From Candidatus Poseidoniaceae archaeon (lineage in GTDB: Archaea > Thermoplasmatota > Poseidoniia > Poseidoniales > Poseidoniaceae), in the NCBI GenBank assembly GCA_938084675.1, contig CALKGM010000017.1:1-59170 (forward strand): a stretch of DNA of 59,170 nucleotides, read 5' to 3'. The position numbers and the translations under genes are program-made. The first letter of the stretch is position 1; every line of letters begins with the position of its first letter. A model generated the notes under the pieces. It did not search any database. It was not told the DNA's origin and saw nothing but the letters and a program-made list of their open reading frames with translations. This document shows, piece after piece, positions 10,297-17,307 of this stretch.

Positions 10297-10408
10297 TCGT
10301 ACCGAGAACATTCTGACTACCGAAGAGAAGCCAGTGGCGAAAGCCTTTGAAGTCTATGCAGTAAATGCCGCTCAAGCGATAGATTTCAAAAGAACTTCAG
10401 AGGAGCGG

Positions 10409-11077
10409 TCACGCCGTCCTTCGTTCGTCCTTCCATTCATAATCCACGCTACCGTGTGGTTGCCAGCACAGGTCAAGGTCGATATGTGGCATGAGTTCAA
10501 TCCGATCATCTCGTAAAATCCCCCGTCGTCGTAGCACTTTTACAGCGCTGTGTACGGTAGCCCGAGTTCTCCCGAGGCGTCGGGCAAGTTCTGCTTGTGA
10601 CCGTGGAACACCTTCACGTTCAACATTTTCTAAAATCAAGCGTTGTACAAGCGAAAGCCCAATCGGAAGACTATGAGCCATTCTTTCTTCTCCAATCACT
10701 GTGCTTCGGAGAACTTCAACTTGACTTGGTGCACCGGCAAAATAGCACGTTCGGCCGTTAACAGGAATGATTGTGACCGATTTGCGATTCTGGAGAACAT
10801 CAAGATGATGTCGCAATGTTCCATTGGCTGTATTCATTGAAGTTTGTAATTCACGGTAGCACAATCCTGGATGCGCCTCTAAGGTTGAAAGGATTCTCCG
10901 CCGCAACGGGTGTTCATGATGGGTTGCTTTGGTTCGTATGCCCCCCATTGTCATAGCGCCAACAGCACCTGCTGCTGCTGCAACACCTCCAGCAAGCCCT
11001 GCAACACTGCTTGCCGCTCCAGCCAATCCAGCCGCTAGCCATGGTCGCTGACGCACCCATTGGGAGAGAAGAGGCAT
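10409..11077 (-). CDS. Membrane-anchored protein with two winged-helix domains
   Basis: 222 residues. Residues about 12-44 form a glycine/alanine-rich hydrophobic segment ('WLAAGLAGAASSVAGLAGG' and onward) that should span the membrane. Two winged-helix domains follow: the first around 55-105 ('RRRILSTLEAHPGLCYREL', 'GTLRHHLDVLQ'), the second around 140-190 ('LVQRLILENVEREGVPRSQ', 'TRATVHSAVKVLRRRGIL'). The pattern matches archaeal membrane-tethered regulators found in Thermoplasmatota-related genomes. It could bind DNA at the membrane or respond to envelope cues, which is inference. A TATA box at 11101-11107 fits a leaderless start at 11077. It is divergent from the phosphatase gene. Confidence 0.75.
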   Translation of the reverse strand: MPLLSQWVRQRPWLAAGLAGAASSVAGLAGGVAAAAGAVGAMTMGGIRTKATHHEHPLRRRILSTLEAHPGLCYRELQTSMNTANGTLRHHLDVLQNRKSVTIIPVNGRTCYFAGAPSQVEVLRSTVIGEERMAHSLPIGLSLVQRLILENVEREGVPRSQAELARRLGRTRATVHSAVKVLRRRGILRDDRIELMPHIDLDLCWQPHGSVDYEWKDERRTA

Positions 11078-11100
11078 ACATTGGGGTTGGCCTTCTCCTT

Positions 11101-11107
11101 CCTTAAA
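11101..11107 (-). promoter_or_regulatory. TATA box of membrane winged-helix gene
   Basis: Minus-strand TTTAAGG, 30 to 24 bases before ATG 11077; predicts a leaderless mRNA. Confidence 0.45.
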
Positions 11108-11151
11108 CCATCGCCGCTTTGAGCGCTACTTTCACTGCTTGAATAAGCCGT

Positions 11152-11158
11152 TAATATA
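11152..11158 (+). promoter_or_regulatory. TATA box of metallophosphoesterase gene
   Basis: TAATATA within TTAATATACC, about 33-39 bases before the ATG at 11191. It predicts a leader of roughly 5-10 bases. Confidence 0.5.
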
Positions 11159-11190
11159 CCCTTGAAAGCGTTTACTTATGGTAGGATTTT

Positions 11191-12006
11191 ATGATGAAAA
11201 ACAAGAGAAATGAAACGATTGAAACGGAGCTACAGTCTGCATTGGACCAAGGTGCAAACGTGTGGGTCATCGGAGATATTCACGGATTTTATCAAAGTTT
11301 TATTTCGCTTCTTGAACAGTTGAATCTTGGTAGAGATGACCGAGTGGTTTTGTTGGGCGACCTCATTGACCGAGGCCCGAATTCTTACGGGGTTGTTCAC
11401 ACTGCACGAACAAATGAACAGATCTTGTGTGTAAAGGGAAATCATGAGGCTATGATGGCTGAAAATTTCTCGTTTGAGCAACTTGAAAACCCAAACATAG
11501 ACATGTTGGTTTGGATGAATAATGGGGGGAATACAACCATTCGTTCCTACTTGGACGCCTTCAACAATGCTTCGACGCTATCCGACCGTCATCTCATGGA
11601 AGAACAAATCCAGAACGATATCAAATGGATTGAAACCCTTCCTCTTCATATTGTTTTGAAGAAATGGAGATTGATACATGCAGGTTACAGCCCAAACCTT
11701 CCTCTTGATGAACAAACAGAGGAAGAATATTTGTGGGTCAGGAAGGAATTTCATCAGGCATCAGAACCTGTTGATATTGAGCGAACTGTTGTCTTTGGCC
11801 ATACTCCTACGGTCAGTCTTCCGGGGCATACGGAGCAATCGTGGGGCAAGGTTTGGCGAAACGAAGTGTGTCTTGACGATATGCGCCCAGCCTCGATCGG
11901 CCTCGATACATGTTTGTATCACGGAAAGCATGGGATGCCGGCAGTCCTGACCGCCTTTAATCTTCAAGACAAGCGTGTAGTTCAACAAAATAGAGTTGAG
12001 CCTTGA
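11191..12006 (+). CDS. Calcineurin-like metallophosphoesterase (PrpA/ApaH type)
   Basis: 271 residues. The binuclear metal site of the PPP-like family is complete: 'VIGDIHG' (Asp29, His31), 'LLGDLIDRGP' (Asp57, Arg61), 'VKGNHEAM' (Asn84, His85), 'HAGYSP' and 'VFGHTP' for the late His ligands, then 'IGLDTCLYHGKHG' as the usual closing strand. Bacterial relatives (PrpA/PrpB, ApaH) remove phosphate from proteins or split diadenosine polyphosphates; which substrate applies here cannot be told. Start is the first of two adjacent ATGs. It stands alone, divergent from the membrane winged-helix gene and convergent with the HxlR gene (2-base gap). Confidence 0.85.
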   Translation: MMKNKRNETIETELQSALDQGANVWVIGDIHGFYQSFISLLEQLNLGRDDRVVLLGDLIDRGPNSYGVVHTARTNEQILCVKGNHEAMMAENFSFEQLENPNIDMLVWMNNGGNTTIRSYLDAFNNASTLSDRHLMEEQIQNDIKWIETLPLHIVLKKWRLIHAGYSPNLPLDEQTEEEYLWVRKEFHQASEPVDIERTVVFGHTPTVSLPGHTEQSWGKVWRNEVCLDDMRPASIGLDTCLYHGKHGMPAVLTAFNLQDKRVVQQNRVEP

Positions 12007-15896: not shown

Positions 15897-16133
15897 CTAG
15901 GCCCACTCGGACATCAAACTGTTGAGCGACTCAACAATTGATGCGATGTCAACGGATTCCCCGTTTTCTTGAGCGAGTTGCAATCGATTACGAACGGCTT
16001 CTATGGTTTCCTCAGAAGGAGCAGAGCCGGTAATTTCCTGTATGACTTCACCGATGCTCTTTCCTCGCCCTTCTTCAATGGCTAAGAGCGCCTTCACGAA
16101 TTCTTCTTCGTCTTTTGGTCTCCGAGCACTCAT
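15897..16133 (-). CDS. Small helical protein of the E1-JAMM operon
   Basis: 78 residues from ATG 16133, whose ATGA overlaps the stop of the JAMM gene, so the two are translationally coupled; an upstream in-frame ATG at 16172 would overlap further and is less likely. The sequence looks all-helical and acidic ('DEEEFVKALLAIEEGRG', 'IEAVRNRLQLAQENGE', 'IVESLNSLMSEW'). It is not a beta-grasp ubiquitin-like protein: no Gly-Gly end and no alternating strand pattern. I do not recognise the family. As third gene in an E1-JAMM operon it may be an adaptor or a substrate. It is convergent with the dehydrogenase/hydratase gene, 2 bases apart. Confidence 0.7.
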   Translation of the reverse strand: MSARRPKDEEEFVKALLAIEEGRGKSIGEVIQEITGSAPSEETIEAVRNRLQLAQENGESVDIASIVESLNSLMSEWA

Positions 16134-16681
16134 GCTTCTACCTCCACTGCAATGTTGTTGTTCCTGTACCACGAATGCCAGGGAGTTGGTTCTTCATTGG
16201 TCCAATTTGAGAGGGGTCCTTCGGTGGAAATAAACGGTGCTTCCAGTTGTTTATTGAACGTTGAATTGCTCGTAAATTTAGGACCAGGTTCGCCCAAGAC
16301 CATTGCAGTCTCCAGAATCATAGTGCCTAGAAATAGACTGTTGGTATCGGTGATGCTCCAATATGCTGCAAAATCAGGGTGAGTATGAACCCATAACTTG
16401 AACGGACTTTTTGCCCCTATTGGCGGTTGGAGGGTCACTTGGCCGGCCGTTCCCCAATCGATGTAGATGCTGTCTTGAGCGTCGATGAGGACAGAGGTTT
16501 CCAAGCCCGCAAGAACAGACAGAATATACACGCCATCCCAACGGCTGTGGGCAGCCAATGTTTCTTGTGCTGAAAGAAGTTGAGGGTTAGCAACCTTCCG
16601 TTCACTTGCTGCGAGACAAGCTTCGTCCCATGTGACTTCATCCAAACCAGTGTTGGAAAATTCCGGGAGTTCGACCATCAT
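16130..16681 (-). CDS. JAMM/MPN+ metalloprotease-like protein
   Basis: 183 residues. The JAMM zinc motif H-x-H-x7-S-x2-D is complete in 'HTHPDFAAYWSITD': His99, His101, Ser109, Asp112. Glu61 ('GLETSVLI') is a good candidate for the general base. JAMM proteins cleave isopeptide bonds after ubiquitin-like modifiers or process such modifiers; archaeal examples remove SAMPs. The gene overlaps the E1-like gene upstream (ATGA at 16678-16681) and the small helical gene downstream (ATGA at 16130-16133). The C-terminal 60 residues are not obviously part of the fold. The E1-JAMM pairing supports a protein-modification or sulphur-transfer role; the substrate is unknown. Confidence 0.85.
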   Translation of the reverse strand: MMVELPEFSNTGLDEVTWDEACLAASERKVANPQLLSAQETLAAHSRWDGVYILSVLAGLETSVLIDAQDSIYIDWGTAGQVTLQPPIGAKSPFKLWVHTHPDFAAYWSITDTNSLFLGTMILETAMVLGEPGPKFTSNSTFNKQLEAPFISTEGPLSNWTNEEPTPWHSWYRNNNIAVEVEA

Positions 16682-17307
16682 GCTTTCACCTCCGGAAATG
16701 AAAGAGCACCATAGGTGATGCTACCCATGGTTTGGGTCGGAGAAGGCTTCCCTCGCAATTCTTGCATGGCCCATTGTGAACCAATGGCAGCGGCGACAGC
16801 AAAGCCAAACTCTAGGTTTCCAGAATCCAATGCTCCATCAACCTGGCAACTCTTTGGTTCGTGGTCTGGTGTCATTTTTTGGACCAAACTTTGCGAGCTT
16901 TGCGATGTAAGAGCGACCCAACCATCTCCAGAACAACGCAAATCAATCCAAGGTACATCAAGACCGTGAACCAAGCGACGAGGCTCTGGCCTGTCAACGC
17001 AAACTACGACCAAATCAAAACCGTCGAGTTGGTTCGCATGCCTCAAATTTTCTGGAAGACCTCTAACATTGACATGTTCAGAATTGAGTCGTTGAGCCAG
17101 CTGTGTGACTTTGTAATGGCCAACATCAGTCAACTTGTAGCGTTGATGACCAAGATTGGTTGGTTCTACGGTATCAGCGTCCATAATGGTCACTGAGCAG
17201 GGCAGCGAAACTCTTGTGATGGCTGGAATCAAGTTTTCCAAAAGACTTGCACCGATGCCACCGGCTCCGACGACAAGCAGTTTTTTCACGGGGTGTTGGG
17301 TGTTCAT
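16678..17307 (-). CDS. E1/ThiF-family adenylyltransferase
   Basis: 209 residues, about the size of a bare E1/ThiF Rossmann domain. ATP-binding 'VVGAGGIGA' (14-19), then 'MDADTVEPTNLGHQRY' (Asp43, Asp45, Glu48, Asn51; the usual R-Q pair is replaced by H-Q-R), Lys66 in 'DVGHYKV', and 'VVVCVDRPEPRRLV' with Asp105. The end 'CQVDGALDSGN...GFAVAAAIGSQWAMQEL' follows the family pattern; Cys154 or Cys125 could be the thioester Cys. There is no CxxC zinc pair and no C-terminal rhodanese, unlike MoeB/UbaA. It heads a three-gene operon with a JAMM protein and a small protein. It probably adenylates a C-terminus, but no Ubl gene is nearby. PRTRC-type ThiF proteins are a possible relative. Confidence 0.85.
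   Translation of the reverse strand: MNTQHPVKKLLVVGAGGIGASLLENLIPAITRVSLPCSVTIMDADTVEPTNLGHQRYKLTDVGHYKVTQLAQRLNSEHVNVRGLPENLRHANQLDGFDLVVVCVDRPEPRRLVHGLDVPWIDLRCSGDGWVALTSQSSQSLVQKMTPDHEPKSCQVDGALDSGNLEFGFAVAAAIGSQWAMQELRGKPSPTQTMGSITYGALSFPEVKA

Follow-up and report, generated by a model that had tools for sequence, protein, structure and literature searches.

What does an E1-like enzyme act on when it is encoded beside a JAMM protease in an operon that carries no recognisable ubiquitin-like modifier (Ubl)? This question is raised by three consecutive genes on the minus strand of the window, the whole stretch of 59,170 nucleotides analysed here. They code for an E1-like adenylating enzyme of the ThiF fold (16678..17307, 209 aa), recognised by Pfam ThiF and its motifs, a JAMM/MPN+ metalloprotease (16130..16681, 183 aa), recognised by its motif residues and a family profile, and a small, helical-looking protein, SM (15897..16133, 78 aa), defined by its position 3' of the JAMM gene. 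The initial annotation had described a three-gene operon with an ATGA at both junctions, and the ORFs are indeed arranged in this way, with 4-nt overlaps on the minus strand between the E1 stop and the JAMM start (16678..16681) and between the JAMM stop and the SM start (16130..16133). We consider it very likely that this triplet represents the activation and processing locus of a Ubl-conjugation system of Ca. Poseidoniales (Marine Group II), the Ubl of which is encoded elsewhere. The proposal draws on gene presence, linkage, motif conservation, a predicted Ubl fold and co-inheritance, from which we infer the biochemistry.

Both catalytic cores had been described as intact from the window, and a search of the fetched homologues for loss of active-site residues found the catalytic motifs of E1 and JAMM conserved. 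The window E1 matches Pfam ThiF at 2.8e-17 (62-63 bits, with a cut-off of 28.1) and contains the ThiF/E1 adenylation motif, composed of a nucleotide loop, two Asp, a Lys and an Asp. The glycines and Ile of the GxGGIG loop (GAGGIG in the window), D43, D45, K66 and D105 are unvarying in 17/17 aligned E1s, as are R124 and S153-C154-Q155, which were not among the residues listed earlier. The window E1 harbours four Cys (37, 103, 125 and 154), of which Cys154 presumably corresponds to the residue that carries the thioester or persulfide in E1/MoeB/ThiF enzymes; this invariant residue probably takes the Ubl as a thioester. The E1s of two near relatives are 88% (G006) and 95% (G180) identical to that of the window. 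With regard to the JAMM protein, E61, H99, H101, P102, S109 and D112 are unvarying in all 27 aligned relatives, which belong to the E...HxHP...SxxD motif and include the four residues first pointed out (H99, H101, S109 and D112). Its match to Pfam Prok-JAB is weak (0.13, 12.6 bits, with a cut-off of 25), and with the JAMM family profile, AMSH-like proteases are matched at 8.5e-4 and Rpn11-type ones less well (0.04 and above). From these sequence features, JAMM is predicted to be a Ubl precursor-processing and deconjugating enzyme.

The linkage of the three genes was examined in relatives, using the best 80 of 87 confirmed Ca. Poseidoniales-type loci. E1 is followed by JAMM in 80/80 of these loci, as a neighbour in 70 and as a fusion in 10, and the SM gene lies directly 3' of JAMM in 67 and was not found in the other 13. 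Start-stop overlaps (ATGA, GTGA or TTGA) join E1 and JAMM in 60 of the 70 unfused loci, and JAMM and SM in 55 of 67. In a separate, earlier set of 121 locus records, duplicates included, E1 and JAMM occur together in 117, adjacent in 107, fused in 9 and apart in 1. The arrangement of the triplet is far from chance. Linkage of JAMM and the small gene to E1 is thus conserved, the exception being genome G100, in which E1 and JAMM are not adjacent. At this locus (L087, 4599-6759, plus strand), the sole one of its kind fetched, JAMM precedes E1 and two ORFs, one of them E2-like, lie between; no other genuine JAMM match is as weak as the one found here.

Four of the 80 records bear bacterial names, namely, L218-L220 from the MAG IN47 ('Acidiferrobacter'), with three separate copies of the system, and L221 from the MAG NP80 ('Acidimicrobiaceae'). 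L218 and L221 have E1s that share 64-72% identity with one another or with L223, a Poseidoniales entry, and those of L219 and L220 share 52-58% with their nearest E1. Given this likeness to Poseidoniales, the bacterial names are probably wrong, or the bins mixed.

The absence of a visible modifier, noted in the initial annotation, holds for the triplet but not for the genome. In several relatives, the small genes upstream of E1 form one family of about 70 residues, which mostly end in Gly-Gly and a short tail. A profile built from 20 units of this family and run against the contigs of the window genome finds two units, both in a single 144-aa ORF on the minus strand of contig C26 (G000:C26:54963-55373), unlinked to E1. 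Each unit of this tandem di-Ubl precursor ends in LVGG, with NAP as the linker and NHC as the C-terminal tail, and the two differ at 9/67 positions. The suggestion that the E1 activates a modifier made elsewhere is supported by this protein with its two Gly-Gly ends; the genome also encodes one ThiS-family protein. Since the Ubl is unlinked from E1 in the genus of the window, the argument for their pairing there is one of homology and co-occurrence. In relatives the link can be direct: 28/80 loci (best 80 of 87) have a Ubl within the flank, two Ubl copies precede E1 within one fused protein in L066, L067 and L068, and Ubl-Ubl-E1 forms a single protein in L257, L260 and L265. In the genomes of family f1 that were examined, the poly-Ubl gene lies away from E1 in a common neighbourhood, which by eye includes a clamp-loader-like gene.

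The number of Ubl units is three in the close relative G180 and two to four in other genomes. Polyubiquitin genes of plants and animals consist of head-to-tail ubiquitin copies, and by analogy the Ubl copy number varies as it does in them. A Gly-Gly end is found in 69/75 distinct Ubl units fetched, including both units of the window genome, and the remaining six end in AG or FG. Among 55 distinct Ubl frames, 49 have GG at the last unit, and in 9 of these the tail exceeds 12 residues; of the 40 precursors with a tail of at most 12 residues after the last GG, 39 carry 1-10 residues. As these 39 extend past the GG, cutting would be needed before E1 acts, and JAMM, which adjoins E1, is the obvious candidate.

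An AlphaFold2 model of an E1-linked Ubl homologue (L253) has the order b-b-a-b-b-a-b, with a pLDDT of 88 and a loose Gly-Gly tail. Foldseek places SUMO, ubiquilin-type UBL and ubiquitin chains on top (probability up to 0.98, TM about 0.45), with a best E of 4.6e-3 and none below 1e-3. The Ubl is therefore predicted to adopt a beta-grasp, ubiquitin/SUMO-like fold, as modelled on this homologue and not on the copy of the window genome. The latter, the di-Ubl, matches Pfam ThiS (4.5e-4) and Urm1 (0.012) and NCBIfam SAMP1 (0.0019), all under the curated cut-offs. Single ubiquitins match the Ubl profile at E 0.06-0.6; a polyubiquitin match at 3.9e-16 sums the repeats of one chain and is not used as strong evidence.

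Two further genes were noticed beside Ubl genes. An 82-aa gene that looks SANT/Myb-like by eye (L121, 1277-1029, minus strand, G000:C26) starts 7 nt past the di-Ubl stop, and has no meaningful Pfam match. It adjoins the poly-Ubl gene in three further genomes (L190, L194 and L198), and the E1 of L084, L085, L095 and L099 terminates in a stretch of similar appearance, again by eye. In G008, a gene that begins with a diverged Ubl unit and continues as an unrelated region (L191, 5154-5801, plus strand) lies directly 3' of a three-unit poly-Ubl gene.

The components are inherited together. Among 193 genomes of the order, E1 is present in 92, JAMM in 96, Ubl in 91 and the E2-like family considered below in 107; for E1, counted by hand, matches weaker than about 1e-15 were excluded as MoeB/UbaA-like paralogues. 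All four genes are found in 84 genomes, none in 83 and only some in 26. Pairwise Fisher tests over the 193 genomes give p values of 2e-35 to 8e-45, which are not corrected for the species tree and, the genomes being related, overstate independence. JAMM, Ubl and the E2-like family occur in the same 17/21 genera of the order, counting positive rows. In the phylum sample of 389 genomes, JAMM is found in 66, 65 of this order and one with a weak 26-residue match, and Ubl in 65, all of this order. Three Ubl-bearing genomes show no E1 or JAMM, and no Ubl is seen in 10/98 genomes that have E1 or JAMM, including G051 (same genus as the window, 93% complete) and G081; genome completeness is mostly 70-96%, so that single absences mean little. 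In G081, the genes flanking the Ubl locus are kept on a 130-kb contig and the Ubl gene is gone, with no E1, Ubl or E2-like match in this genome. A putative JAMM remnant there (E 5.6e-5, three stops) was rejected, as tblastn with two JAMM queries and E up to 1 returned none and the stretch behind it is this same Ubl neighbourhood without Ubl; the 96 JAMM genomes are thus probably 95.

The fourth component is a Cys-bearing, E2-like family. Its gene stands in the order Ubl, E2-like, E1, JAMM in four loci (L217, L218, L221 and L223), and Ubl-E2-like fusions occur in L070 and L246. The window genome encodes three members (E 1e-19, 5.5e-9 and 1.1e-6), each with the Cys, which are located at L184 391-2763, L185 1369-2142 and L186 982-2115. 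The locus had also been suggested to be a trimmed E1-JAB system, which is true of the window locus itself, but the operon of relatives also contains Ubl and E2-like genes, and the window genome carries both at other sites. Since the E2-like profile was built from rows picked with the Cys required (regular expressions, A2 and A7), the Cys was counted anew in all profile matches, with this requirement lifted, and the residue is invariant in 78/78 readable domains of 85 distinct ones (two have an X, five fall short of the column). The invariant columns of alignment A2 are G, C, D and D, with no invariant His. The predicted core (pLDDT about 90) comprises a helix, four strands, the Cys and a helix, in an E2/RWD-like order. 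The family is probably an E2, as judged from these sequence and model features.

In the proposed system, JAMM would separate the two units of the di-Ubl and free the second of its tail by cutting after each Gly-Gly. E1 would then adenylate the Gly-Gly carboxylate of the Ubl by means of GAGGIG, D43/D45, K66 and D105, and hold the Ubl as a thioester on Cys154. One or more of the Cys-containing E2-like proteins would receive the Ubl and transfer it to targets, and JAMM could also remove or recycle the tag. The window genome has two matches to 20S proteasome alpha/beta-type genes, so degradation is one possible fate of tagged proteins. The system is real, conserved and probably complete, the window showing its activating and trimming part. 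Somewhat short of an even chance, we would place the stronger claim of an independent complete cascade, with a polyubiquitin-type precursor, a dedicated E1, JAMM and a new, highly diverged E2 family that has spread into several large multidomain proteins, some with TFIIB-like neighbours; if so, transcription might be under the control of the tag, or tagged proteins might be directed to the 20S proteasome.

It is possible, though rather doubtful, that conjugation is real and the Cys-containing proteins are not E2s but substrates, readers or effectors, with direct transfer from E1. The family has no relatives in Pfam, NCBIfam or PDB profile searches, and Foldseek gives its model no significant match, the best (E 0.15) being to an unrelated chain. 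Furthermore, the members of the window genome vary in size (257, about 377 and 790 aa) and in their extra parts, and some of the family adjoin TFIIB-like genes. Against this reading stand the invariance of the Cys in every readable domain, the four-gene order and the fusions with Ubl, and the predicted order of elements. Chains of E2 entries also appear in the Foldseek results at E 0.56-0.84 (ranks 6, 9 and 11), and an E2 has the highest probability among the 50 rows listed, at only 0.21. Of note, the 790-aa protein of the window genome (L187, G000:C11, 7085-9457, plus strand) lies near a gene for a TFIIB-type zinc ribbon (10393-11544, minus strand), matched at 5.4e-5, which is below the cut-off, and similar pairs were seen by eye in L193 and L196.

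According to a second and unlikely explanation, the E1 makes a Ubl thiocarboxylate for biosynthesis or tRNA thiolation, JAMM trims the carrier and the E2-like proteins use sulfur or Ubl. MoeB, ThiF and UbaA have no separate catalytic-Cys domain, and the window E1 likewise lacks one; the best profile matches of the di-Ubl moreover include ThiS, Urm1 and SAMP1. UbaA carries zinc CxxC pairs and also serves MoCo synthesis and tRNA thiolation. The pairs typical of the MoeB/UbaA subfamily are missing from the window E1, as previously noted, none of its Cys forming a CxxC, and its 28 bits with the UbaA equivalog model (cut-off 450) place it outside this subfamily. A second, canonical MoeB/UbaA-like E1 is present in the window genome (402-aa frame, 1.4e-78) and can pair with the ThiS-family protein, which leaves the window set free for tagging. 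For the same reason, this SAMP/MoaD-like protein was discarded as a partner of the window E1. We know of no sulfur-carrier pathway that includes tandem Ubl copies or a co-inherited Cys-bearing family. In the accessible sections of the survey by Iyer, Burroughs and Aravind, thiamine and MoCo operons are also described without any JAB (PMC1779556).

We consider it very unlikely that the locus is a mobile cassette of the anti-phage E1-JAB or PRTRC type. Such an origin would agree with the patchy distribution, with the best NCBIfam match of the window E1, PRTRC ThiF (4.8e-18), and with the PADLOC E1-E2 models, which match the E1 part of the window system only. However, the PRTRC ThiF match reaches 65.4 bits against a cut-off of 144.75, and JAMM, SM, Ubl and the five E2-like proteins tried have no PADLOC match; the PRTRC and CBASS-like labels, being below cut-off or confined to the E1 part, were set aside. 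The f1 loci keep their chromosomal surroundings, with a fatty-acid-oxidation-like gene downstream in 22 loci (by eye), and no defence-like neighbours were recognised by eye in the clustered loci, which comprise those of at least 6 kb. In the phylum sample, the system is moreover confined to one order, apart from the one weak JAMM match.

With regard to known systems, we consider this one an archaeal variant of bacterial-type polyUbl/E1-JAB systems, the Caldiarchaeum ubiquitin system being also among the closest. The bacterial polyUbl operons of row 6e, as they appear in the accessible sections of Iyer, Burroughs and Aravind 2006 (PMC1779556), share tandem Ubls, E1 and JAB in one protein in some members, and an E2-fold-like partner that is sometimes fused to the polyUbl. 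In these sections, however, the 6e E2-like domain has no Cys and is termed inactive, whereas the Cys is invariant in Poseidoniales; the fusion is worded as JAB fused to E1, whereas the E1 part comes first in the Poseidoniales fusions; and the operons come from sporadic bacteria, whereas the present system is archaeal, occurs in 17/21 sampled genera of one order and has an unlinked polyUbl gene in the genus of the window. The 6d operons of the same source combine Ubl, JAB, E1, a Cys-bearing E2-like protein and a helical protein, but their E2-like domain is described there with an absolutely conserved His after the Cys, in contrast to the Poseidoniales family, which has no invariant His (PMC1779556). 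A 2024 review, in its accessible part, repeats the bacterial systems of 2006 (PMC11354881).

Among archaea, the operon of Caldiarchaeum subterraneum resembles the proposed system by its short-tailed Ubl precursor, its trimming JAMM and its E1 and E2 steps (PMC5654768, PMC6043591), and the accessible text reports that the archaeal JAMM trims pro-ubiquitin (PMC5654768). It is described there with a eukaryote-like E1 and E2, a small RING and a single ubiquitin (PMC5654768, PMC6043591), whereas Poseidoniales have a 209-aa E1, tandem Ubls weakly like ubiquitin and no recognisable UBC family match. The Haloferax SAMP/UbaA/HvJAMM1 system, as outlined in the available parts of two articles (PMC4443979, PMC4895103), likewise has an archaeal Ubl, a ThiF-type E1, a JAMM and a proteasome; Poseidoniales differ by a second, dedicated E1 and co-inherited Cys-bearing proteins. 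BilABCD (PMC11354881) and CBASS ubiquitin-like conjugation (PMC10097602) follow a similar logic of E1, E2-like protein, Ubl or target, and JAB, but are antiviral operons, in contrast to the E1-only PADLOC matches and the lack of defence-like neighbours by eye here. In the accessible part of a 2014 survey, a UCH and RING-type genes are mentioned for one Marine Group II single-cell genome, but the genes of the present system are not (PMC4327156). The Poseidoniales/Marine Group II and ubiquitin literature, in the parts available and with preprints and most subscription journals aside, gave no description of the present system.

Only an E2-like family that turned out to be its own type of E2 would make the system more than a new archaeal variant. 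If the family is a real E2, it forms a very diverged branch, which would bear on the origin of E1-E2 relays and of polyubiquitin genes. Outside eukaryotes, we know of a tandem Ubl precursor with its own E1 and JAMM only from bacterial operons (PMC1779556).

We give practically no credence to the idea that SM itself is the modifier or the E1 substrate, an option also raised in the initial annotation, as its place directly 3' of JAMM (67/80 loci of the best 80 of 87, mostly with start-stop overlap) is set against its lack of a C-terminal Gly-Gly, the 13/80 loci in which it was not found and the beta-grasp Ubl co-inherited with E1. The window copy ends in WA, and the ends differ among relatives. 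With the modifier role discarded on account of the missing Gly-Gly and the separate Ubl, SM probably serves JAMM or E1 as a partner or adaptor; the term helical is a reading of its primary structure. In genus g18 (L084, L085, L095, L096 and L099), the SM gene is followed 3' by a gene that looks CYTH-like by eye, then by a TFIIB-like gene and by a Ubl with AG and two further residues at its end in place of GG. TFIIB-like genes were also observed 3' of the SM gene in several f2 loci.
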